A stretch of 64,000 bases of DNA from Methylobacterium terrae (lineage in GTDB: Bacteria; Pseudomonadota; Alphaproteobacteria; Rhizobiales; Beijerinckiaceae), in NCBI RefSeq assembly GCF_003173755.1, contig NZ_CP029553.1, positions 1,876,501 to 1,940,500 on the forward strand, in the 5' to 3' direction. A program made the translations under genes and the position numbers. Under the pieces are notes generated by a model. The model searched no databases and was not told the origin of the DNA. It saw only the letters and a list, made by a program, of their open reading frames with translations. Numbering within the stretch: the stretch's first letter is position 1; every line of letters starts with the position of its first letter. Positions 52,378 to 63,402 of this stretch are shown here, piece by piece.

Positions 52378-52420
52378 CAGGCGGCTGCGCTCAGCGCAGG
52401 CGGCTGCGCTCAGCGCAGCC
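52378..52420. repeat. Two 19-bp direct repeats with a palindromic core at convergent gene ends
   Basis: CAGGCGGCTGCGCTCAGCG occurs twice in tandem (52378-52396, 52397-52415). GGCTGCGCT-C-AGCGCAGCC at 52402-52420 forms a 9-bp hairpin. The second copy covers the stop codon of the bestrophin gene. It may serve as a bidirectional terminator between map and the bestrophin gene. Confidence 0.65.
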
Positions 52421-53324
52421 AGTAGCGCTCCGGCGCCAGCGGCGGCGGCACCGGCTCGCCGAGGGCGTCCTGCACCACGCCGTCGACGGTGCGCAGGAGC
52501 GCGTCGAGGGGCAGGTCGTTGGCGGCCGCGCCGAACGGCTCCTCGAGCTCGTCGCCGAGCGCGTCGAGGCCGAAGAACGTGTAGGCGACGAGCGCCGTCG
52601 CCACCGGCGTGCCCCAGCCCAGGGACGCAGCCAGCCCGAACGGCAGGAGCAGGCAGTAGAGCCAGGCGGTGCGGTAGAGGAGCAGCGTGTAGGCGAAGGG
52701 CAGGGGCGTGCCCTGGATGCGCTCGCAGGCCGCCTGCACGCCCGACAGCCCGGCGAGCTTCCCCTCGATCAGGCCGAACGACACGTCGCTCAAGGCGCCC
52801 TCCCGCACGGCCCCGCCGAGATCGATCGCGAGGCCGGTCAGCGCCGCGTCGGCGGGGCTCGCGCAGGCGGCCAGGCGCCCGCGCTCGGCCTCCGGCAGGA
52901 ACGGGGCCGCCTCGGCCGCGGCGTCCCTGCCCCGCAGGCGGGCATGGAGCGCGTGGGTGAAGCCGGCGAGCCGGTTCAGGCAGCGCCGCCGGCGAGCCTC
53001 GTCCTCCGGCAGAAGCGCGCCGAGCAGGCGGGCAAGGCCCCGCGCCTCGACGATCAGGGCGCCCCAGACCTTCCGGGCCTCCCACCAGCGATCGTAGCAG
53101 GCGTTGTTGCGGAAGCTGAGGAAGATCGACAGGGCGAGGCCGATCAGCGTGAACGGCCCGATGCCGGCATGGAGCGGGATCGCGCGGGCCCAGCCCTGCT
53201 CCGTCGCCACCACCAGGCAGGCCACCGCCGTGATCCCGATCACCTGCGGGGCGATCTGCGGCAGGATCGACCCGCGCAGCGCGAACAGGATCGCGAGGGC
53301 GCCGGGGCGGGAACGGACGATCAT
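52410..53324 (-). CDS. Bestrophin-like membrane protein (YneE/UPF0187)
   Basis: This 304-residue protein starts at ATG 53324 (MIVRSRPGALAILFALRGS). The bestrophin signature SIFLSFRNNACYDRWWEARKVWG appears near residues 67-90, and pairs of membrane helices flank it (about 20-60 and 205-250). Bacterial members form pentameric channels, some conducting cations. The C-terminus ends in PERYWLR. The gene is convergent with map, sharing a repeat at the junction. Confidence 0.9.
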   Translation of the reverse strand: MIVRSRPGALAILFALRGSILPQIAPQVIGITAVACLVVATEQGWARAIPLHAGIGPFTLIGLALSIFLSFRNNACYDRWWEARKVWGALIVEARGLARLLGALLPEDEARRRRCLNRLAGFTHALHARLRGRDAAAEAAPFLPEAERGRLAACASPADAALTGLAIDLGGAVREGALSDVSFGLIEGKLAGLSGVQAACERIQGTPLPFAYTLLLYRTAWLYCLLLPFGLAASLGWGTPVATALVAYTFFGLDALGDELEEPFGAAANDLPLDALLRTVDGVVQDALGEPVPPPLAPERYWLR

Positions 53325-53432
53325 CGGAGGAGGACCTGCATCGGGACGGGACCTGCATCGGGGAAGCGCCCGCATCCGGACCGGGGCCGGCCGGGTGCGG
53401 GGGCGCGGTCATCCGCCCCCGCGCCCCCGCGG

Positions 53433-53858
53433 TCAAGCGCCGGCCGCCCGGCCGCCGGCGGGAATGCGCGCGATCGCCTTGATCTCGAAGTCGAAGCCCG
53501 CGAGCCAGGTCACCCCGACGGCGGTCCAGTTCGGGTAGGGCGGCTCGCCGATCACCCGATCGCGCACCCGCATCACCGCGTCGAACTGCGCCTCCGGGTC
53601 GGTGTGGAAGGTCGTCACGTCGACGACGTCGTCGAAGGTGCAGCCCGCCGCCGCCAGCACCGCCGCGAGCCGGGCGAAGGCCTGCGCGACCTGGGCCTCG
53701 AACTTGGGCTCGGGCGACCCGTCCTCGCGGCTGCCGACCTGGCCGGAGACGAACAGGAGGTCGCCGGAGCGGATCGCCGCCGAGTAGCGGTGCTTGTCGT
53801 AGAGGGCCTGCCGGCCGGGCGGGAAGACGGCGTCGCGGGTGGGTCGGGCTTGCGCCAT
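53433..53858 (-). CDS. RidA family protein divergent from TetR regulator
   Basis: This 141-residue protein has ribosome binding site GGAGG upstream of ATG 53858. Typical segments are YSAAIRSGDLLFVSGQVG and FARLAAVLAAAGCTFDDVVDVTTFHTD, with an end GFDFEIKAIARIPAGG. It belongs to the YjgF superfamily of enamine/imine deaminases or related hydrolases, of which the substrate is often unclear. It is transcribed away from the TetR gene, whose operators lie between the two starts, so it is the likely regulated target. Confidence 0.9.
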   Translation of the reverse strand: MAQARPTRDAVFPPGRQALYDKHRYSAAIRSGDLLFVSGQVGSREDGSPEPKFEAQVAQAFARLAAVLAAAGCTFDDVVDVTTFHTDPEAQFDAVMRVRDRVIGEPPYPNWTAVGVTWLAGFDFEIKAIARIPAGGRAAGA

Positions 53859-53886
53859 GGGTTGCTCCTCCGGGCCGCGCGTTGAT

Positions 53887-53949
53887 ATACGGTCCGTATG
53901 TGAAGGAGCATGGATACGCGCCGTATGTCAATTCACATACGGCGCGTAT
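53887..53949. promoter_or_regulatory. Three 13-bp operator copies between RidA and TetR genes
   Basis: ATACGGTCCGTAT (53887-53899) is a perfect palindrome about a central T. ATACGCGCCGTAT (53914-53926) and its exact reverse complement ATACGGCGCGTAT (53937-53949) form a larger inverted repeat with 15-nt arms and a 6-nt spacer. Spacings are 27 and 23 bp between starts. These lie between the divergent promoters, as expected for an autoregulating TetR protein. Confidence 0.8.
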
Positions 53950-53965
53950 GTCACGAGGGAGCGGA

Positions 53966-54556
53966 ATGGCCGGACGACGCGCGCGGATGATGGAGGAGAC
54001 GAAGGGGAAGCTCCTCCGGGCCGCCCGGGACGCCTTCGCGACGAAGGGCTACGCGGCCGCCTCGATGGACGACCTGACCGCCGAGGCCGGGCTGACGCGC
54101 GGCGCGCTCTACCACCATTTCGGCGACAAGAAGGGGCTGCTCCAGGCGGTCATCGATCGCATCGACGCCGAGATGGCGGCGCGGCTGCGGGTCGTCGGCG
54201 AGGGCGCGCCGACGCCGTGGCACGGGCTCCTCGACGAGTACCGGGCCTATATCGAGATGGCGCTGGAGCCCGAGATCCAGCGCATCGTGCTCCTCGACGG
54301 CCCGGCGGTGCTCGGCGATCCGTCCCGCTGGCCGAGCCAGAACGCCTGCCTCGCCGAGACGACCCGGCGCATCGGGGCCCTCGTCGCGGACGGGGCGATC
54401 CCGGCGATCGACCCGGAGGCGGCGGCGCGCCTCCTCAACGGCGCCTCGCTCCACGCGGCTTTGTGGGTCGCGGCCTCGGACGCGCCCGAGGCGGTGCTGG
54501 GAAAGGCCCTCGACGCGTTCCGGCGGCTCGCCGAGGGGTTGGGGCGCCCAGCTTGA
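53966..54556 (+). CDS. TetR family regulator
   Basis: This is a 196-residue protein if started at ATG 53966 (MAGRRARMMEETKGKLL), with GGGAG about 6 nt upstream. A TTG at 53882 and an ATG at 53948 are in frame but would lie in the operators. The helix-turn-helix is ASMDDLTAEAGLTRGALYHHFGDKKGL at about 32-58. The C-terminal domain has YIEMALEPEIQRIVLLDGPAVLG, typical of TetR_C_33-like members. It probably represses itself and the divergent RidA gene through the three operator copies. Confidence 0.9.
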   Translation: MAGRRARMMEETKGKLLRAARDAFATKGYAAASMDDLTAEAGLTRGALYHHFGDKKGLLQAVIDRIDAEMAARLRVVGEGAPTPWHGLLDEYRAYIEMALEPEIQRIVLLDGPAVLGDPSRWPSQNACLAETTRRIGALVADGAIPAIDPEAAARLLNGASLHAALWVAASDAPEAVLGKALDAFRRLAEGLGRPA

Positions 54557-54581: not shown

Positions 54582-54698
54582 CCCCCGCTCCCAGGGGAGC
54601 CTCGCGAGGAGGCTGAGATTCCGCCGGTCCGGACCCGTCCGGGCGCCGCGGTGACCCTATGAACCTGATCCGGGTCATGCCGGCGTAGGGATGCGGGA
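54582..54698 (+). ncRNA. TPP riboswitch (THI element)
   Basis: The conserved core is present in order: GGCTGAGATT at 54611-54620, ACCCTATGAACCTGATC at 54654-54670 and TGCCGGCGTAGGGA at 54678-54691. The closing stem pairs CCCGC plus TCCC (54584-54592) with GGGA plus GCGGG (54688-54697). The internal G/C-rich arm lies at about 54621-54653. The element is on the same strand as, and about 100 nt upstream of, the LuxE-like gene. TPP binding is expected to switch the following operon off. Confidence 0.95.
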
Positions 54699-54703
54699 CC
54701 GGC

Positions 54704-54734
54704 ACGGGCTCCAGGGCCGACCGAGCCGTCTTTT
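54704..54734 (+). terminator. Riboswitch expression-platform terminator
   Basis: ACGGGCTC (54704-54711) pairs with GAGCCGT (54723-54729) with one bulged base, followed by CTTTT. It lies directly after the TPP aptamer and before the first gene, so it is probably the intrinsic terminator used when TPP is bound. Confidence 0.65.
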
Positions 54735-54795
54735 CGCGCATGATCTCTCCGCTCGCGCATGGCCGTCGCCCGGGAACGGGCGCGAGGTGGCCGTC

Positions 54796-55872
54796 ATGTC
54801 GCAAGCCGAGATCGTCGAGGCGCTGCTCGCCTTCATCGCGCGGGACGACGCGACCGACGACGCGTTCGAGGCGCTGGCCCTGCGGCTGTTCGCCCACCAG
54901 TTCACGCACAACGCGCCCTACCGCCGCTTCGCCCAGGCGCGCGGGCGCACGCCGCTCACGGTGCGGCGCTGGCACGACATCCCGGCGGTGCCGATCAAGG
55001 CGTTCAAGGACCTGACCCTGAGCTGCTGCCCGCCGGAGGCGGCCGAGCGGGTGTTCATGACGAGCGGCACGACCGGAAGCGGGCGCGGCCGCAGCTACCA
55101 TCCGACGCTCGCGGTCTACGACGCCTCGATGCTGGCGGGCTTCTCCGCCCGGATCATGCGCGGGCGAAAGACGATCCGGATGGGCATCCTGTTCCCGGAC
55201 GAGGCGGCGCTGCCGAATTCCTCGCTCGCCCACTACCTGGCGCTGGCGAAGGAGCGGTTCGGCACGCCGGACAGCGCGGTCTTCGTCCGTCAAGGCGGGC
55301 TCGACCTCGACGCGCTCCTGCGCGCGCTCGGTGAGGCCGAGGCCTCGGGCGCGCCCATCGCGCTGCTCGGCGCCACCTACGCCTTCGTGCCGGTGATGGA
55401 CGCGCTTCGCGATCGGGGTCGCCGCTTCGCCCTGCCGCCGGGGAGTTTCCTGTTCGACACCGGCGGCTTCAAGGGCCAGTCGCGGGAGATCGAGCCGGAC
55501 GCGTTCTACGACGGGCTGTCGCAGGCGTTCGGGGTGCCGCGGGCGGCCTGCTTCAACATGTACGGCATGACCGAGCTGAGCACACAGTTCTACGACGACG
55601 GCAACGCGGCCTGCCCGCCGGTGAAGTCCGGTCCGCACTGGATCCGCAGCCGCGTCGTCGATCCGCTGACCGGCCAGGATCTCCCGGAGGGCGAGACCGG
55701 CGTGCTGGTCCACCACGACCTCGCGCATTTCAATTCGGTCTCGGCGATCCTGACCGAGGATGCCGGGGTGGTCGTGCCCGGGGGCTTCCGGCTGCTCGGG
55801 CGGGTCGAGGGCTCGGCCTCCCGCGGCTGCTCGGTCGCGGTGGCCGAGTTCCTGGCCGCCGCACAGGGATGA
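54796..55872 (+). CDS. LuxE-like acyl-protein synthetase
   Basis: This 358-residue adenylating enzyme starts at ATG 54796, with GAGGTGG 6-12 nt upstream; the frame is open to 54691, inside the riboswitch, so that start is unlikely. The nucleotide-binding loop is TSGTTGSGRGRSYH (residues 89-102). Further family marks are FNMYGMTELSTQFYDD and the C-terminal RGCSVAVAEFL, whose Cys 345 sits where LuxE carries its acyl-accepting cysteine. LuxE activates a carboxylic acid as acyl-AMP and passes the acyl group to LuxC. No luciferase is present. The context with ThiZXY-type genes suggests a thiamin-related carboxylate as substrate. Confidence 0.9.
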   Translation: MSQAEIVEALLAFIARDDATDDAFEALALRLFAHQFTHNAPYRRFAQARGRTPLTVRRWHDIPAVPIKAFKDLTLSCCPPEAAERVFMTSGTTGSGRGRSYHPTLAVYDASMLAGFSARIMRGRKTIRMGILFPDEAALPNSSLAHYLALAKERFGTPDSAVFVRQGGLDLDALLRALGEAEASGAPIALLGATYAFVPVMDALRDRGRRFALPPGSFLFDTGGFKGQSREIEPDAFYDGLSQAFGVPRAACFNMYGMTELSTQFYDDGNAACPPVKSGPHWIRSRVVDPLTGQDLPEGETGVLVHHDLAHFNSVSAILTEDAGVVVPGGFRLLGRVEGSASRGCSVAVAEFLAAAQG

Positions 55873-57323
55873 GCGCGGTCGAGCAGGCCGGCCACCTGCC
55901 GGATATCTTCCCCGAGCCGGTCGGCCGGCGCGTCGCCGCGCACACGGCCTGGGGCGAGACCGTCGCGGTCGCGCTGCCGTCCTTGAGCGAGGGCCAGGCC
56001 GGGGCCCTGTGCGCCCATATCCGACGCCAAGCCCGCGAGCGCTTGCGGCGGATGGAGACCGCCCGCATCGTCGCCGCCATCGACCGGGCGAGCGCCTGCC
56101 TGCTCGACCGCGCCCACCCCCTGCGCCGCAAGGCCGAGGCGCTGCTCCCGGTCGTCACCGGCTACGACCGCGAGACCGTGCGGCTCGGCCTGACGAGCAC
56201 CCTCAAGACCTTCCGGCGGCCGCAGCTTCTGCGCTTCCTGGCCGAGGACTTTTCCGATCCCGGGATGCTCGACGGCTTCCGGCCGGCGGTGAAGGGCGGG
56301 TTCGTGCGGGCGAAGGCGCCCGACCTGCTGCTCCACGTCTGGGCCGGCAACGTCCCGGCCCTGCCGCTGTGGAGCCTCGTCGCGGGCCTGCTCGTCAAGG
56401 CCGGCACGATCGGCAAGCTCGCCTCGGCCGAGCCGCTGACCGCGGGCTGGTTCGCGGGGCTCGTCGCGGAGGCCGATCCCGAGCTCGGGGAGTGCCTCGC
56501 GATCACCTGGTGGAAGGGCGGCGAGGACGCGATCGAAGGAGCGTTCCTGGGAGAGGCCGATTGCGTCATGGCCTATGGCGGCAACGCGACGCTCGCGGCG
56601 TTGCGCGCCAAGCTGCCGATCACGGCCCGGTTCCTGCCGCACGGCCACCGCATCGGCTTCGCGATGGTCGCCCGCGAGGCGCTCGACAGCCGCCGCGCCG
56701 GCCCGCTCGCGCGGCTCGCCGCCCACGACGTCGTGCGCTACGAGCAGCAGGGCTGCTACGCGCCGCAGATGCTGTTCGTCGAGCGCGGCGGCGCGGTGGC
56801 GCCGGACGCGTTCGCCCGCCACCTCGCCCACGAGCTCGCCGCGATGGCGAGCCGCCACCCGCGCCGGCGGCTCGACGCGGGCGAGGCCGCCGCGATCGCC
56901 GGGTGGCGCAGCGCCCACGAGATGCGCGCCCTGGATGGTGGCGCGGCGCTCCTCGGCGACCCGGCCGATCCGTGGAGCGTCGCCCTCCTCGACGAGGCCG
57001 CCGCCTTGAGCCCGTCGGGCCTCAACCGCACCGTCGCGGTGGTGGCGCTCGACGATCTCGCCGAGGTGCCGGCCCTGGTCGCCCCCCATCGCGCCTACCT
57101 CCAGACCGCCGGGATCGCCGCCGCCCCCGCGCGGCTGCTGACGCTCGCCGACGACCTCGCGGCGGTCGGCGTCACCCGGATCTCGGCCATCGGCCGCATG
57201 ACCGCGCCGGAGGCCGGCTGGCACCATGACGGGCGCTTCAGCCTCCTCGACCTCGTCACCGTGACGGAGATCGAGGCGAGCGCCGAGGCGGCGGCGGAAG
57301 GCTTCGCGCCCTATGCCGACTGA
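55869..57323 (+). CDS. LuxC-like acyl-CoA/acyl-protein reductase
   Basis: This 484-residue protein has an ATG overlapping the LuxE stop (ATGA). The catalytic motif is EQQGCYAPQ with Cys 296, matching the thioester-forming cysteine of LuxC. Nearby are LLHVWAGNVPALPLWSL, YGGNATLAALRAKLP and FLPHGHRIGFAMV, all typical of the LuxC-type aldehyde dehydrogenase fold that uses NADPH. It should reduce the acyl group delivered by the LuxE-like partner to an aldehyde. Length agrees with LuxC (about 475-490). The C-terminus overlaps the ATPase gene by 11 nt. Confidence 0.9.
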   Translation: MSAVEQAGHLPDIFPEPVGRRVAAHTAWGETVAVALPSLSEGQAGALCAHIRRQARERLRRMETARIVAAIDRASACLLDRAHPLRRKAEALLPVVTGYDRETVRLGLTSTLKTFRRPQLLRFLAEDFSDPGMLDGFRPAVKGGFVRAKAPDLLLHVWAGNVPALPLWSLVAGLLVKAGTIGKLASAEPLTAGWFAGLVAEADPELGECLAITWWKGGEDAIEGAFLGEADCVMAYGGNATLAALRAKLPITARFLPHGHRIGFAMVAREALDSRRAGPLARLAAHDVVRYEQQGCYAPQMLFVERGGAVAPDAFARHLAHELAAMASRHPRRRLDAGEAAAIAGWRSAHEMRALDGGAALLGDPADPWSVALLDEAAALSPSGLNRTVAVVALDDLAEVPALVAPHRAYLQTAGIAAAPARLLTLADDLAAVGVTRISAIGRMTAPEAGWHHDGRFSLLDLVTVTEIEASAEAAAEGFAPYAD

Positions 57324-58086
57324 CGCCTTCCTCGCCCTCGACGGCGTGCGCTACCGCTTCCCCGGCGACCCGGCCGAGACCGTGGCGGGCGTCGACTGGG
57401 CGATCCCCCGCGGGGCGATCCACTGCCTGCTCGGCCGCAGCGGCTGCGGCAAGACGACGTTGCTCAAGCTCGCCGCCGGCCTGCTGGCGCCGGATCACGG
57501 CACGGTCCGGCTCGGCGGCGAAGCCTTGCGCGGCCCCTCCCCCCGCGTCGGCTTCGTGTTCCAGGCCCCGACCCTCCTCGACTGGCTCTGCGCCCTCGAC
57601 AACGTGCTCTTGCCGGTCTCGCTCAAGCGCCGGCCCCGTCCCGCCGACCGGGACGCCGCCCGCGACCTGCTCGCGGCGATGGGCCTCGGCGACCTCGCCG
57701 GCCGCCGGCCCGCCGCCCTCTCGGGCGGGCAGCGGAGCCGGGTCGCGATGGCGAGGGCGCTCATCGGCGGCCCGGACCTCCTGCTCCTCGACGAGCCCTT
57801 CGCCGCCCTCGACGCGCTGACCCGCGAGGAGTTGCAGGACGACCTCCTGGGCCTCTGCGCCTCGCGCGGGACCGCGGCGCTCTTCGTCACCCACGACATC
57901 GCCGAGGCGGTCACCCTCGGCGACCGGGTCGGGGTGATGGCGGCCGGGCGCCTGATCCACGAGGGCGCGGTCCCGCTGCCCCGGCCGCGGCCTCCCGGCA
58001 TCCGCTACGAGCCCGCCTTCGGGGCGGCGTGCCGCCATCTGCGCGCGATCATGGACGCCTCCCCGGCTCTCGGGCGGGCGGCGTGA
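57313..58086 (+). CDS. ABC transporter ATP-binding protein, ThiZ/SsuB type
   Basis: This 257-residue ATPase has Walker A GRSGCGKTT (residues 41-49), the Q-loop GFVFQAPTLLDW, signature ALSGGQRSRVAMARAL and Walker B LLLLDEPFAALD, then the switch histidine in FVTHDIAEAV. The FQ-PTLL-W form is shared by nitrate, sulfonate, taurine and ThiZ-type ATPases. A TPP riboswitch upstream makes thiamin precursor import the best reading. Confidence 0.9.
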   Translation: MPTDAFLALDGVRYRFPGDPAETVAGVDWAIPRGAIHCLLGRSGCGKTTLLKLAAGLLAPDHGTVRLGGEALRGPSPRVGFVFQAPTLLDWLCALDNVLLPVSLKRRPRPADRDAARDLLAAMGLGDLAGRRPAALSGGQRSRVAMARALIGGPDLLLLDEPFAALDALTREELQDDLLGLCASRGTAALFVTHDIAEAVTLGDRVGVMAAGRLIHEGAVPLPRPRPPGIRYEPAFGAACRHLRAIMDASPALGRAA

Positions 58087-58832
58087 GGGCGCGCCTCGCC
58101 TCGGCCCTGCTGCTGGCGGGCCTTCTGATCGCCTGGGAGGCGTGGTGCCGCTCGGGCGCCGTCTCGCCCCTCGTCCTGCCGGCGCCGTCGGCCGTCGCCG
58201 AGACCCTGTGGGGGGAGATCGCCTCCGGCCGGCTCTGGCCGCACCTGCGGGTCACCGTCACCGAGATGGCGCTCGGGCTGCTTGCCGGCGCGGGCCTCGG
58301 GCTCGGTGCCGGCATCCTGCTCTCGGAATGGCCGGCGCTCCACCGGGTGCTGCGCCCCTACGTGCTGGCGAGCCAGCTGGTGCCGAAGCTGGCGCTCGGC
58401 CCCCTGCTGATCCTCTGGTTCGGCTTCGGGCTGACGCCGACCGTGGTGATCACCGCGCTGATCTGCTTCTTCCCGCTGTTCGAGAACACCCTGACGGGCC
58501 TCGCCCAGGTCGATCCGGGCCAGCGCGAGCTCTTTCGCATGCTCGGGGCGGGCCGGGCCCGGACGCTCTTGCGCCTGAAGCTCCCTTCGGCGCTGCCGGT
58601 GGTCCTGGCGGGTTTTCGCGTCGCGATCGTGCTCGCCCTCGTGGGCGCGGTGGTGGGCGAGTTCGTCGGCGGCCGCCAGGGCCTCGGCGCCTCGATCATC
58701 GCCGCCCAGAGCGTGATGGATTCGAGCCTGATCGTGGCGCTCTTCGTGGTGATCACCGCCCTCGGCATGGCCGTCTACGAGGCCGCGCGGGGGCTCGAGG
58801 CCCTGATCCTGCGCCGTTACGCGAGAGGTTGA
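58083..58832 (+). CDS. ABC transporter permease, ThiX/SsuC type
   Basis: This 249-residue permease starts at a GTG that overlaps the ATPase stop (GTGA). It has about six helices. The coupling loop is FRMLGAGRARTLLRLKLPSALPVVLAGFRVAI, and the end ALFVVITALGMAVYEAARGLE is typical of the sulfonate/thiamin-precursor group. It shares its binding protein and ATPase with the neighbouring genes. Confidence 0.9.
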   Translation: MRARLASALLLAGLLIAWEAWCRSGAVSPLVLPAPSAVAETLWGEIASGRLWPHLRVTVTEMALGLLAGAGLGLGAGILLSEWPALHRVLRPYVLASQLVPKLALGPLLILWFGFGLTPTVVITALICFFPLFENTLTGLAQVDPGQRELFRMLGAGRARTLLRLKLPSALPVVLAGFRVAIVLALVGAVVGEFVGGRQGLGASIIAAQSVMDSSLIVALFVVITALGMAVYEAARGLEALILRRYARG

Positions 58833-58840
58833 CCCTGACG

Positions 58841-59830
58841 ATGCCCTCCTTCCGTCTCCTCGTCGTCCTCGCGCTGACCTGGCTCGGCGGCCCGGCCCTC
58901 GCGCAGACCCCTGAAAAATTCACCGTCGGCGGCTGGAGCCAGCCGATCAGCGAGATCACCAACCTGCTCGCCGAGCCCGACCACGGCTTGTTCAAGGCCC
59001 GCGGCATCGCCCTCGACTACGTGCCGGGCAATGGCGGCGGCGCGGCGATCCAGGCGCTGCTCTCGGGGCAGGCGGACGTCGCCTTCACCGACCCGGCCTC
59101 GTTCTACCTCGCCCTCGACAAGGGCGCGGACCTGGTGGCGATCTACAACATCTACCCGCAGAACGTGTTCAACGTCGTGGCGCTTAAAGAGCGCGGCATC
59201 CGCTCGGCGGCCGACCTCAAGGGCAGGCGCGTCGGCGTCTACAGCCTGGCGAGCGGCACCCGCCAGCACCTGCTGCTGCTGCTCGCCAGCGCCGGCCTGA
59301 AGGAGAGCGACGTGACGGTCGAGGTCACGGGTCTCCTCAACTTCGCGCCCCTGATCCAGGGCCAGGTCGACGCCACGGCGGCCACCGATACCGGGCTCCT
59401 CGTCGGCCGCGCCAAGGGCCTCGGCGAGGTCGACGTGATCGCGGTGCGCGACCACCTCAACCTGCCGAGCGACATCTTCGTGGTGACGCGCAAGGACTAC
59501 GAGGCGAGGAAGCCGCTGCTCAAGCGCTTCCTCGCCGCCTACCGCGACTCCGCCGCCTGGATGATCGCCAGGCCCGACGAGGCGGCGCGGCTGGCCGTCA
59601 CCCGGGCGATCAACGGCCGCGACGAGGCGATCAACCGCGAGGTGATCGCCTTGCGCAATCGGTCGAGCGTGTCGCCCACCACCGAGCGCGAGGGCCTCGG
59701 CCATTTCGACTTGCCCGTCCTGCAAGAGGGTGCCGACACCTTCCGCCGGCTCGGCCTGATCGCCCGCGCCCTCGACATGGGCCAGGCGGTGAAGAGCGAC
59801 CTGCTGCCGGGCAAGGAGGGCACGAAGTGA
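58841..59830 (+). CDS. ABC transporter substrate-binding protein, NMT1/ThiY-like
   Basis: This 329-residue periplasmic protein has a signal peptide (about residues 1-22, ending GGPALAQ). The mature start EKFTVGGWSQPISEITN and LDYVPGNGGGAAIQALLSGQADVAF are characteristic of the NMT1/THI5-like, ThiY or SsuA type. Binding of a pyrimidine or thiazole related to thiamin is inferred from the riboswitch and neighbours, not from residues I can verify. Its stop overlaps the SDR start. Confidence 0.88.
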   Translation: MPSFRLLVVLALTWLGGPALAQTPEKFTVGGWSQPISEITNLLAEPDHGLFKARGIALDYVPGNGGGAAIQALLSGQADVAFTDPASFYLALDKGADLVAIYNIYPQNVFNVVALKERGIRSAADLKGRRVGVYSLASGTRQHLLLLLASAGLKESDVTVEVTGLLNFAPLIQGQVDATAATDTGLLVGRAKGLGEVDVIAVRDHLNLPSDIFVVTRKDYEARKPLLKRFLAAYRDSAAWMIARPDEAARLAVTRAINGRDEAINREVIALRNRSSVSPTTEREGLGHFDLPVLQEGADTFRRLGLIARALDMGQAVKSDLLPGKEGTK

Positions 59831-60594
59831 GGTTTACCGACCGCGCCGTCCTGGTCACGGGGGCCAGCCGCGGCATCGGCGCGGCGATCGCCGCGGCCTT
59901 CGCCCGTGAGGGCGGCCTCGTCGTCGTCAATTACCGCCAGAACCACGACGCCGCGCACGCCGTGGCGGAGCGCTGCCGGGCGCTCGGCGGCCAGGCGCTC
60001 GCGGTCGCGGCCGACGTGACCGATGCCGGCGCGGTGGCGGCCCTGGCGGAGCGGATCGCCGAGGAGGTCGGCCGCCTCGACGCGGTCGTCAACAACGCCT
60101 TCGCGCCCTACCGCTTCGATCCCGACCGCCGCGCACGCTTCCCCGACGTGCCGTGGGAGGCCTACCAGCGCCAGTTCGACGGCGCGGTGCGGGCGGCCCA
60201 CACGGTCGTCCGGGCGATGCTGCCGCTGCTCGCCCGGCGCAGCGGGGGCGCCATCGTCAACCTGACGAGCGACCTCGTCGCGCGCCCGAGCATCCCCTAC
60301 CACGACTACACCACCGCCAAGGCGGCGCTCGTCGGCTTCAGCCGCAACCTCGCGGCCGAGCTCGGGCCGATCGGCGTGCGGGTCAACTGCGTGGCGCCGG
60401 GGCTGGTCACCGGGACCGATGCGAGCCGGGACACGCCCGAGGAGGTGCGCGAGGCGCTGATCGCCCAGACCCCCTTGCGCCGCCTCGCGACGCCGGAGGA
60501 CGTGGCCGGGCCGGTGCTGTTCCTGGCCAGCGCGGAGAGCCGGTTCGTGACCGGGCAGGTGCTGACCGTGGATGGGGGATTGGTGATGGGGTGA
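59827..60594 (+). CDS. SDR family oxidoreductase of the TPP-regulated operon
   Basis: This 255-residue SDR starts at GTG 59827, overlapping the binding-protein stop. The cofactor motif is TGASRGIG, the N-site NNAFAP (in place of NNAG), the serine lies in NLTSDLV and the catalytic pair is YTTAK. The end reads TGQVLTVDGGLVMG, the FabG-like type. In this operon it could reduce an aldehyde made by the LuxC-like enzyme to an alcohol. That link is inference from gene order. It is the last gene before a repeat element and a convergent LysR gene. Confidence 0.85.
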   Translation: MRFTDRAVLVTGASRGIGAAIAAAFAREGGLVVVNYRQNHDAAHAVAERCRALGGQALAVAADVTDAGAVAALAERIAEEVGRLDAVVNNAFAPYRFDPDRRARFPDVPWEAYQRQFDGAVRAAHTVVRAMLPLLARRSGGAIVNLTSDLVARPSIPYHDYTTAKAALVGFSRNLAAELGPIGVRVNCVAPGLVTGTDASRDTPEEVREALIAQTPLRRLATPEDVAGPVLFLASAESRFVTGQVLTVDGGLVMG

Positions 60595-60652
60595 GTCAGC
60601 CCGGGGGCTTGCGCCACCTTGCGCGCTGTTCCGGCATGGGCGCGGGTCTTCC

Positions 60653-60845
60653 CCTCTCCCCGCGGGCGGGGAGAGGCCTTCACCCCCCTCGTCGGGGGTG
60701 AGGGGAGCGAAGGCGACAGCCGGAGCGAGGGTGAGGGGGTCTCGACGAGCGAGGCTCCTCCGGAACCGCCCCCTCACCGTCGGCTGCCGCCTCGCTGTGC
60801 TCCCTGAACGGGAGCACAGCCCTCTCCCCGCCCGCGGGGAGAGGG
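60653..60845. repeat. Long palindromic intergenic repeat, family B copy 3
   Basis: Terminal CTCTCCCCGCGGGCGGGGAG and CTCCCCGCCCGCGGGGAGAG arms enclose a GAGGGTGAGGGGGTCTCG / CGCCCCCTCACCGTCGG core, with a CCCCTCGTCGGGGGTGAGGG arm pair. It lies in the 315-bp gap between the convergent SDR and LysR genes, where I see no other feature, and could terminate both transcripts. Confidence 0.8.
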
Positions 60846-60909
60846 GATACGCGCACCACATGGGATTGCCGCTCAGTAGTCAGACTTCAGCAGACGCCAC
60901 CACCGATCC

Positions 60910-61818
60910 TCACACCCCGAACCGCAACCCCTCCCGCTCGTAATCCTCCCGCACGCATTGCAGGATCAACCCGATCTCCGGCGAGGGGTCGTTCCTGCGG
61001 TAGCTCATGATAACCGGGATCAGCGCCCGCTCCTCGTCGAGGGGCCGGTAGGCGACGCCGTCGCGGCGCAGGCGCTCGATCGAGGCAGGCACCACGCAGA
61101 CTCCCGCTTCCGCCGCGACGAGGCCGAGCGCGGTCTGGAGCTCGCGCACCTCGTGGATCACCGGCGGGCGCACCCCGTGCTCGCGAAACAGTGCCAGGAT
61201 GCGGTCGGCGTTGTTGGGCCGGGCGCTCTTCGGGTAGAGGATCAGGGCCGTGTCGGCGAGGTCGCGGAGCTTCAGGGGGCCCGGCGGGCGCTCGGCGTCC
61301 CAGGCCATCGGCACGGCGACGATCAATTTCTCGTTGCGCAGGAGGACGCGCTCGATCGCCGGATCCTCGATCTCGACCCGGCCGAAGCCGACATCGATGC
61401 GGCCCTCCTTCAGCGCCGCGATCTGCTCGAGGGTCAGCAATTCGAGCAGCGTCATGTCGACGTCGGGGCGTTTCGTCCGGTAGCCACGCAGGATCTCCGG
61501 GAGCCGTCCGTAGAGCGTCGAGGCGACGAAGCCGATGCGAAAACTGTTGCGCTCGGCGACGCGCAGGCGCCGGCCGGTCTCGCGCAGGTCGTCGACCCGC
61601 TCCAGGATCTGCAGGGCCTGCTCGTAGATCACCCGGCCCGGCTCGGTCAGCCGTACCGGCCGCGAGCCGCGCTCGATCAGTTCCAGGCCGAACTCCTCCT
61701 CGAAGTGCTGCACCTGCTTGCTCAGCGCCGGCTGGGCGACGTGCATCGCCTCCGCCGCGCGGGTGAAGCTCTGCGCGCGGGCGACGGCCACGAAGTAGCG
61801 CAGGTGGCGCAGCTCCAA
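60910..61818 (-). CDS. LysR family regulator, BenM/CatM-like
   Basis: This 302-residue regulator uses a TTG start at 61818; GGGGAGG lies 5 nt upstream. The helix-turn-helix is SFTRAAEAMHVAQPALSKQVQHFEEEFG at about 17-44, and the effector domain includes FRIGFVASTLYGRLPEIL and the GLVAAEAGVCVVPASIERL segment. It is divergent from benA, so it most likely activates the ben genes with benzoate or cis,cis-muconate as effector; BenM/CatM are the known models. Effector identity is inferred. Confidence 0.88.
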   Translation of the reverse strand: MELRHLRYFVAVARAQSFTRAAEAMHVAQPALSKQVQHFEEEFGLELIERGSRPVRLTEPGRVIYEQALQILERVDDLRETGRRLRVAERNSFRIGFVASTLYGRLPEILRGYRTKRPDVDMTLLELLTLEQIAALKEGRIDVGFGRVEIEDPAIERVLLRNEKLIVAVPMAWDAERPPGPLKLRDLADTALILYPKSARPNNADRILALFREHGVRPPVIHEVRELQTALGLVAAEAGVCVVPASIERLRRDGVAYRPLDEERALIPVIMSYRRNDPSPEIGLILQCVREDYEREGLRFGV

Positions 61819-61850
61819 TCATTCCTCCCCGATCATTCCTGCCAGGAATG
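61818..61850. promoter_or_regulatory. LysR-benA intergenic palindrome and direct repeats
   Basis: CATTCCTGCCAGGAATG (61834-61850) is a perfect 17-bp palindrome about a central C. The sequence ATCATTCCT is repeated at 61818-61826 and 61832-61840 (14 bp apart). The first copy lies next to the LysR TTG start. These are candidate LysR binding sites that would also give autoregulation. Confidence 0.6.
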
Positions 61851-62073
61851 GTTTTGTTCCCAATCGGTCTTGGACCTCCTTATGCCGCTTCCTTAGAACT
61901 GAAAAAAGAGGAAACGCTCAGGGAGCGAGCGGGGCTCGGGACGAGACAGTCCAGGACGAGCACCCTGCCACCCTGCGCACAGACGAGCGACAGATCCGAG
62001 CCGGCCGCGCATCCCGTGGACCGGCAACGACCTCCCTCGTCTCAAGAACAGCCGGCGCGGCAGGGAGAGCATC

Positions 62074-63402
62074 ATGCTGGACGAACTGCATCAGGTGGTC
62101 GAGGGCGCGGTCGAGGAGAACGCCGAGACCGGCGTGTACCGCTGCCGCCGGGACATCTTCACCGATCCCAGCATCTTCGAATTGGAGATGCAGCACATCT
62201 TCGAGGGCAACTGGATCTACCTGGCCCACGAGAGCCAGATCCCGAACCCGAACGACTACTTCACGACGTTCATGGGCCGCCAGCCTGTCGTCATCACCCG
62301 CAGCCGCAAGGGCGAGTTGCAGGCCTTCGTCAACGCCTGCAGCCACCGCGGCGCGATGGTGTGCCGGCACAAGCGCGGCAACAAGGCGACCTTCACCTGC
62401 CCGTTCCACGGCTGGACCTTCAGCAACGGCGGCAAGCTCCTGAAGGTCAAGGATCCGGAGAATGCCGGCTATCCCGAGAGCTTCAACCGCGACGGCTCGC
62501 ACGACCTGACCAAGGTGGCGCGCTTCGAGAACTACCGCGGCTTCCTGTTCGGCAGCCTCAACCCCGACGTGAAGCCGCTGACCGAGCATCTCGGCCAGGC
62601 GACGCGGATCATCGACATGATCGTCGACCAGTCGCCGGACGGGCTCGAGGTCCTGCGCGGCGCCTCGACCTACGTCTTCGACGGCAACTGGAAGCTCCAG
62701 ACCGAGAACGGCGCCGACGGCTACCACGTCAGCGCGACGCACTGGAACTACGCCGCCACCACCAGCCGGCGCAAGGAATCGCACGTCGTCGACAAGACCC
62801 GCGCCATGGATGCGGGCGGGTGGGCGAAGCAGGGCGGCGGCTTCTACTCGTTCGAGCACGGCCACCTCCTGCTCTGGACCACCTGGGCGAACCCGGAGGA
62901 CCGGCCGAACTGGGACCGCCGCGGCGAACTGGCGGACCAGCACGGGCAGGCGATGGCGGACTGGATGATCAACCGCTCGCGCAACCTCTGCCTCTACCCG
63001 AACGTCTACCTGATGGACCAGTTCTCGTCGCAGATCCGCACCTACCGGCCGATCGCCGTCGATAAGACCGAGGTGACGATCTACTGCATCGCGCCGCGGG
63101 GCGAGGCGCCCGACGCCCGGACCCGGCGCATCCGCCAGTACGAGGACTTCTTCAACGCCAGCGGCATGGCGACCCCGGACGACCTGGAGGAGTTCCGCGC
63201 CTGCCAGATCGGCTATCGCGGCCGCGCGGCGCAGTGGAACGACCTCTGCCGCGGCGCCACCCACTGGATCGAGGGCGCGGACGAGGGGGCGCGGGCGATC
63301 GGGCTGGAGCCGCTGCTCAGCGGCGCCAAGACCGAGGACGAGGGCTTGTTCGCGATCCAGCACCGCTACTGGATGGACACGATGCGGCGGCACCTGCCGT
63401 AG
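62074..63402 (+). CDS. benA: Benzoate 1,2-dioxygenase large subunit (Rieske)
   Basis: This 442-residue oxygenase subunit starts at ATG 62074 with GGGAGA 8 nt upstream. The Rieske ligands are CSHRG (Cys89, His91) and CPFHGW (Cys109, His112). The mononuclear iron region has Asp215, His218 and His223 in [16 protein letters not shown]. It hydroxylates benzoate to the cis-diol, later catechol. Anthranilate dioxygenase large subunit (AntA) is a close relative and cannot be excluded, which matters because an aminobenzoate cluster lies in the same window. benB follows after 133 nt. Confidence 0.9.

Follow-up and report, generated by a model that had tools for sequence, protein, structure and literature searches.

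A thiamin pyrophosphate riboswitch coupled to luxE-luxC genes in Methylobacterium terrae and other bacteria: a candidate pathway for salvage of an oxidised thiamin pyrimidine

Organization of the operon

The DNA analysed is a 64,000-nucleotide stretch of Methylobacterium terrae (contig NZ_CP029553.1, positions 1,876,501 to 1,940,500), which will be referred to as the window; the genome consists of a single contig of 6.16 Mb. Six genes on the + strand lie 3′ of an aptamer for thiamin pyrophosphate (TPP) and encode, in this order, LuxE, LuxC, the ATPase and the permease of an ATP-binding cassette (ABC) transporter, an NMT1-type binding protein, and a short-chain dehydrogenase/reductase (SDR). 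The features are as follows (window positions).

54593-54691, + strand: TPP riboswitch aptamer (RF00059); cmscan 60.4 bits, gathering threshold 54.3
54692-54795, + strand: leader from aptamer to luxE start; alignment of nine leaders, folds, terminator scan
54796-55872, + strand: LuxE-like carboxylate-activating enzyme, 358 aa, Cys345; Pfam PF04443, 65.5 bits
55869-57323, + strand: LuxC-like acyl reductase, 484 aa, Cys296; Pfam PF05893, 281.5 bits
57313-58086, + strand: ABC transporter ATPase; Pfam PF00005 (ABC_tran), 102.9 bits
58083-58832, + strand: ABC transporter permease; Pfam PF00528 (BPD_transp_1), 101.1 bits
58841-59830, + strand: periplasmic binding protein, NMT1/THI5-like; Pfam NMT1, 146.7 bits
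59827-60594, + strand: SDR oxidoreductase, proposed aldehyde-to-alcohol step; Pfam PF13561 (adh_short_C2), 201 bits

The initial annotation, made from the sequence alone, had placed a TPP aptamer upstream of luxE, followed by six same-strand genes with starts overlapping or less than 10 nt apart. The aptamer was confirmed by cmscan with a score above the gathering threshold (E 2.3e-9) and is the only Rfam match in the window at that threshold. The gene arrangement agrees with the coordinates, which give four overlaps (4, 11, 4, and 4 nt) and one gap of 8 nt, and Pfam supports all six genes. The starts of luxE and of the permease and binding protein genes were chosen within longer open frames; for luxE, position 54796 was picked from conservation, and an alternative longer frame from 54691 would overlap the aptamer. 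Neither a luciferase nor LuxD, and neither tenA nor ylmB, was detected by Pfam among the six operon genes.

Judging from the aptamer, the riboswitch is predicted to bind TPP and to repress the window operon. A terminator-like hairpin with CTTTT had also been described next to the aptamer, and this element had to be discarded for the window, because the terminator scan found no intrinsic terminator between aptamer and luxE, the fold of the respective stretch was no better than that of shuffled sequences (z +0.86, poorer than the mean of the shuffles), and four of the eight aligned Methylobacterium relatives (L019, L020, L022, and L039) have an interrupted T run. A hairpin beside the Shine-Dalgarno stretch (~54763-54790) is largely kept among the Methylobacterium relatives in the alignment of nine leaders, and its fold was no better than that of shuffles in the three leaders folded (window, L017, and L020). 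The relative from Priestia has a strong terminator between aptamer and luxE, with 11 pairs followed by a T run (fold z −2.8).

Conservation of the gene set and of its coupling to TPP

A TPP riboswitch is coupled to a conserved luxE-luxC gene set in two phyla. A protein search with LuxC, in which 7997 candidates were scored, yielded 1784 relatives at E ≤ 0.001, and the LuxC domain was present in all of the best 120 of these. Scanning 84,980 species genomes resulted in 378 loci, the best 80 of which (L017-L096; alpha-, beta-, and gammaproteobacteria with a close luxC) were analysed. The carriers include Methylobacterium, Enterovirga, Bosea, Azorhizobium, Pseudochelatococcus, Azospirillum, Pantoea, Erwinia, Enterobacter, Polaromonas, Rhodoferax, and several metagenome-assembled genomes (MAGs). 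Using the six window proteins in tblastn, the order luxE-luxC-ABC-permease-binding protein-SDR was obtained at 66 of the 80 loci, and luxE-luxC-SDR with no relatives of the ABC genes at 13 (L049, L054, L057, L060, L062-L065, L067, L071, L078, L081, and L095); at L082 the contig ends after the ATPase gene. The SDR belongs to the cluster at 79 loci, the remaining one ending with its contig.

A TPP aptamer is located upstream of luxE at 76 of the 80 loci; three are without it, and one was counted as cut off (L023, which begins ~140 nt before luxE). The riboswitch-luxEC association, whose absence elsewhere would have spoken against the proposed function, is thus present in other genomes. A strict search string for the TPP core matched in 63 loci, in every case upstream of luxE; neither the minus strand nor 4.6 Mb of Markov-shuffled sequence gave a match, which places the association above chance. 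One extra match, at L093, represents the riboswitch of thiC; there, thiC with its own riboswitch is located directly upstream of the TPP-luxE unit. Among the 17 loci without a string match, Infernal placed a TPP element at the equivalent position in 13: above the gathering threshold in eight (L073, L075, L079, L080, L083, L084, L088, and L092), at 47.2-53.5 bits in four (L072, L076, L077, and L086), and at 34.6 bits in L082, where the element is clipped by the contig end. A genome-wide search detected TPP elements in all of the 42 carriers searched, the 63 loci themselves being counted by string match. By eye, luxE of L096 lies directly behind an open reading frame (ORF) resembling a protein-L-isoaspartate methyltransferase, and the DNA just upstream of luxE in L087 resembles that of L096.

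The five nearest relatives of the window LuxC in the tree are from Methylobacterium. A rapidly built tree groups the 87 LuxC proteins of the cluster together (SH-aLRT 96), separate from four distant LuxC, the placement of the latter being unsure owing to long branches around them. At the four LuxC loci outside the clade (Sphingobium, Streptomyces, Chloroflexota, and Novosphingobium; ~13 kb each), no TPP element was found at E ≤ 0.1. The scan of viral contigs gave no relative.

Several clusters are plasmid-borne. A Priestia megaterium plasmid carries the full six-gene order behind an aptamer of 49.0 bits, which is below the gathering threshold, and the cluster on a Pseudomonas silvicola plasmid has a TPP element of 63.8 bits. 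On a Niallia taxi megaplasmid (L101, 5564-11156), two tandem TPP aptamers (85.0 and 72.9 bits) precede an operon of ThiW (175.4 bits, cut-off 84.35), an NCS2 permease, luxE, luxC, and SDR; ThiW is a thiazole importer. A Lactiplantibacillus plantarum plasmid shows a TPP element (67.6 bits) followed by genes for an NCS2 permease, luxE, luxC, and SDR; noted with it was Levilactobacillus brevis, with a LuxC 99.8% identical (LuxC alone was compared). In Niallia and Lactiplantibacillus an NCS2 nucleobase permease occupies the place of the ABC genes. Taking the 80 loci and the Bacillota plasmids together, the luxE-luxC-SDR core is constant and the importer variable.

Enzymes and binding protein

The cysteine motifs of LuxE and LuxC had been reported as intact, and this is fully supported by the alignments: Cys345 is invariant in all 21 aligned LuxE sequences, in which the stretches SGTT and MYG.TE are also invariant or nearly so, and Cys296 in all 20 aligned LuxC sequences, where it aligns to a Cys in the LuxC chain of 7xc6. 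LuxE proteins activate acids, LuxC proteins convert the thioester to an aldehyde, and SDR enzymes can reduce the aldehyde to an alcohol. Given these established family roles, LuxE, LuxC, and SDR together make up a complete acid-to-alcohol sequence. Against the curated NCBIfam models of the fatty-acid enzymes, the window LuxE and LuxC reached 62 and 70.3 bits, compared to cut-offs of 550 and 750, respectively. The LuxE model is nearest to PaaK-type aryl acid ligases among the structural matches listed; 3l2k and 3hgv represent the phenazine enzyme EhpF, which adenylates an aromatic acid for reduction.

The best structural matches of the binding-protein model are ThiY and the thiamin-binding 4nmy (tied), followed by Thi5, all above SsuA, and by its modelled fold the protein belongs to the ThiY group. 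By sequence, a profile search with the binding protein ranked 3qsl and 4nmy first, and THI5 and ThiY above SsuA 2x26; a single-sequence search put SsuA (3e4r) first.

Flanking regions

Upstream of the operon (52413-54553), genes for a bestrophin and a RidA/YjgF-family protein on the − strand and for a TetR regulator on the + strand were noted. The adjoining region on the other side (60910-63402) contains a BenM-like LysR regulator (− strand, score under the BenM cut-off) and the large subunit of benzoate 1,2-dioxygenase (benA, 858 bits). The GC-rich intergenic DNA at 60640-60860 shows, by eye, inverted copies of a repeat of the type ccctctccccg. A survey of flanking ORFs across the loci, noisy in its ORF calls in GC-rich flanks, gave no convincing recurring neighbour indicative of the substrate and no further recurring synthesis gene.

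Thiamin genes of the carriers

The host genome yielded three TPP riboswitches in a search that scored 150 of 324 first-look candidates: one before thiC (5156016), one before thiO (341 bits) with thiG behind it at 5011007, and one before the luxE-luxC operon. The best match to the ThiM family in the host (PF02110, 21.5 bits) stays below the cut-off of 27; ThiM exceeded the cut-off in 16 of 42 cluster genomes and did not in the other 26. Thiamin pyrophosphokinase (TPK) was detected in none of 37 cluster genomes, a search that did not cover ThiK. No ThiC was detected in 22 of 91 cluster genomes, namely, in five of 43 (own genome included), in five of 36, and in all 12 additional ones from one alphaproteobacterial order, referred to as the G140 order. 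Twelve of these 22 ThiC-less carriers have ThiG at more than 300 bits (G135, G137, G140, G142, G158, G182, G184, G185, G186, G188, G190, and G191).

The G140 order comprises 27 genomes, 18 of which carry the cluster, with a fragment in one more (G178); ThiC is absent from 26 and full ThiG is present in 12. The clearest example is its namesake G140 (OX638326.1), a chromosome-level MAG of 4.15 Mb in which ThiC was not found, a TPP element of 69.6 bits precedes luxE-luxC-SDR (L095), and another of 51.2 bits, below gathering, is located directly before thiO-thiG-thiE. The same genome contains one more LuxC-like stretch (G140:C1:310-1230), a distant one of 124 bits. Twelve further loci of this order were inspected; nine (L127-L135) match a looser TPP string ~150-170 nt before the luxE match, by string only, and L138 is cut off.

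Proposed function

Computation provides the basis of the proposal: the riboswitch and its coupling to a conserved gene set, the ThiC, ThiG, ThiM, and TPK content of the carriers, and the fold modelled for the binding protein. Since the operon is under TPP control, its product should feed thiamin synthesis. The alcohol precursors of thiamin are 4-amino-5-hydroxymethyl-2-methylpyrimidine (HMP) and hydroxyethylthiazole, the latter requiring ThiM for its use, and oxidised pyrimidine and thiazole acids occur as breakdown products of thiamin. The initial annotation had named both acids as candidates for an imported oxidised thiamin fragment that is reduced for salvage. The general idea is a prediction of activity that fits the exchange of transporters, the thiamin gene content, and the modelled binding-protein fold. 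As to the substrate, the pyrimidine acid is favoured over the thiazole acid, because the host and most of the tested carriers are without ThiM above cut-off and because HMP is what the ThiC-less carriers with ThiG would need. We therefore consider it probable that the operon serves a TPP-repressed salvage of an oxidised, carboxylic form of the thiamin pyrimidine half.

At low TPP, the riboswitch would permit expression of the operon, and the ABC importer, or the NCS2 permease in some Bacillota, would take up the pyrimidine acid, most simply 4-amino-2-methylpyrimidine-5-carboxylate. LuxE would adenylate this acid and hold the thioester on Cys345. The acyl group would then be reduced by LuxC (Cys296) to the aldehyde and further by the SDR to HMP, which could be used by ThiD and ThiE. 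Repression, substrate, order of reactions, cofactors, and the presence of ThiD are in this scheme predictions drawn from sequence. As a whole, an undescribed and horizontally spread vitamin B1 salvage pathway, in which LuxE-LuxC-SDR convert a pyrimidine acid to HMP in at least two phyla and supply the pyrimidine of ThiC-less bacteria with ThiG, appears to us, by a small balance, the better supported conclusion.

Several observations weigh against salvage of a pyrimidine acid. Most carriers (69 of 91, including G172 with ThiC fragments alone) have ThiC. Of the 22 carriers in which ThiC was not found, ten likewise gave no or weak matches to ThiG and are without the full gene, and eight of these ten belong to the G140 order. 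Some ThiC absences may be assembly gaps, since ten of the carriers concerned are MAGs (L028, L064, L066, L078, L081, L085, L090, L091, L094, and L095) and twelve others are of unknown completeness; G142, for instance, is a Bosea MAG whose assembly may just have missed ThiC. Within the G140 order the cluster occurs in nine of 11 genomes with ThiG and without ThiC and in eight of 15 with neither gene; a statistical tie of the cluster to ThiG was looked for and not found, and the order thus documents genomes that have lost ThiC and carry the cluster, but no tie to ThiG. No importer is visible in the clusters that lack ABC genes. Infernal detected no TPP riboswitch at three of the 80 loci (L087, L094, and L096), and at L136 and L137 of the G140 order none was detected by string or Infernal. 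The binding protein scores 103 bits to the SsuA subfamily, under the cut-off of that model, and a single-sequence search ranks SsuA (3e4r, 43 bits) before 3ix1 (28.5 bits). Carriers lacking ThiC and ThiG alike, importer-less clusters, and riboswitch-free loci are left without explanation.

These points have to be set against four alternatives. In the first, thiamin acetic acid is imported and reduced back to whole thiamin, which would account for the ten carriers without ThiC and full ThiG and agrees with the tie between a thiamin-bound binding protein and ThiY as best structural match; TPK was, however, absent from all 37 cluster genomes searched (ThiK was not part of that search), and the retention of ThiO-ThiG-ThiE after loss of ThiC would go unexplained. 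We regard this as unlikely. Slightly less credit is given to a fatty or other ordinary acid reduced as in bioluminescence, with an indirect link to the riboswitch, for example, through a TPP-dependent enzyme downstream. By Pfam, LuxE and LuxC do fall into the families that supply luciferase with aldehyde, their relatives are annotated in the records as long-chain fatty acid-CoA ligase and acyl-CoA reductase, and the best sequence match of LuxE is the solved LuxE of 7xc6 (57 bits), which also counts against a pyrimidine substrate even though 7xc6 is not among the best 50 structural matches of the LuxE model. However, the scores far under the curated cut-offs and the vicinity of the LuxE model to aryl acid ligases among the matches listed argue against fatty acids, and TPP coupling in two phyla, an NMT1/ThiY-like binding protein, and nucleobase permeases do not fit.

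Import of 4-methylthiazole-5-acetic acid and its reduction to 5-(2-hydroxyethyl)-4-methylthiazole would follow an identical acid-to-alcohol logic. ThiM above cut-off in 16 of 42 cluster genomes, ThiW within the Niallia operon, and the cluster MAG G114, which has ThiC and ThiM without full ThiG and is thereby a further case against the pyrimidine half, all point in this direction. Nevertheless, the resulting alcohol needs ThiM, for which neither the host nor 26 of the 42 genomes gave a match above cut-off, 12 cluster genomes have ThiG with ThiC not found, and ThiY and a thiamin binder are the top matches of the binding-protein model, making the thiazole half improbable. The least credible alternative, to which we attach very little weight, is that LuxE-LuxC-SDR take part in de novo synthesis of the pyrimidine without ThiC; the 22 carriers in which ThiC was not found and the 13 loci without ABC genes in the cluster would suit it, but an importer is present at 66 of 80 loci, ThiC in 69 of 91 carriers, and the noisy flanking survey showed no further recurring synthesis gene. 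Salvage of the pyrimidine acid is therefore our preferred explanation.

If this explanation is correct, enzymes of bioluminescence would have a second, vitamin-related role in many bacteria, where the present annotation of these proteins reads acyl-CoA reductase and long-chain fatty acid ligase. The acid form would join the pool of thiamin precursors exchanged by microbes, and in soil, plant, and aquatic habitats damaged vitamin B1 would form a common pool of pyrimidine acids. Predictions of auxotrophy would shift as well, as ThiC-less genomes with the cluster could use the pyrimidine acid besides HMP or thiamin. The proposal also names one substrate that is open to a direct test, with a laboratory complementation assay.

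Comparison with known systems

The initial annotation knew of no description of luxEC under thiamin control. We likewise found no paper joining LuxE or LuxC with thiamin control in a limited literature search, and supplements or databases may hold one; the claim of novelty accordingly has little to rest on. A study of RNA-motif regulons annotated 564 TPP sites in 249 genomes, and its main text, as far as it was seen, mentions no luxE, luxC, reductase, acyl-protein, or NMT1 (PMC3766115). The operon probably represents a known logic, riboswitch-controlled precursor salvage, with chemistry and enzymes not known for it.

Like the LuxC-LuxE complex of luminescence (7xc6), which works through acyl-Cys intermediates, the window operon encodes a predicted two-protein carboxylate reductase with both cysteines kept. 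It differs in the scores of its proteins (62 and 70 bits, compared to curated cut-offs of 550 and 750) and in having an importer, an SDR, and thiamin control but no luciferase. EhpF-type adenylating enzymes and carboxylic acid reductases resemble the proposed pathway in that an aromatic ring carboxylate is adenylated before reduction to the aldehyde, whereas their reductases are of other families and they serve antibiotic synthesis or general acid reduction rather than vitamin salvage. The salvage of formylaminopyrimidine by ThiXYZ-YlmB-TenA shares with the proposed pathway the TPP-controlled import of a pyrimidine fragment, a binding protein of the NMT1/ThiY type, and conversion to HMP; in place of deformylation and hydrolysis, the six genes of the window, without tenA and ylmB, would use an ATP-dependent acid reduction by LuxE, LuxC, and SDR. 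CytX, ThiW, and other TPP-controlled importers have in common with the operon the riboswitch-governed uptake of precursors, but these import ready alcohols, whereas the compound imported by the window operon would first need reduction.

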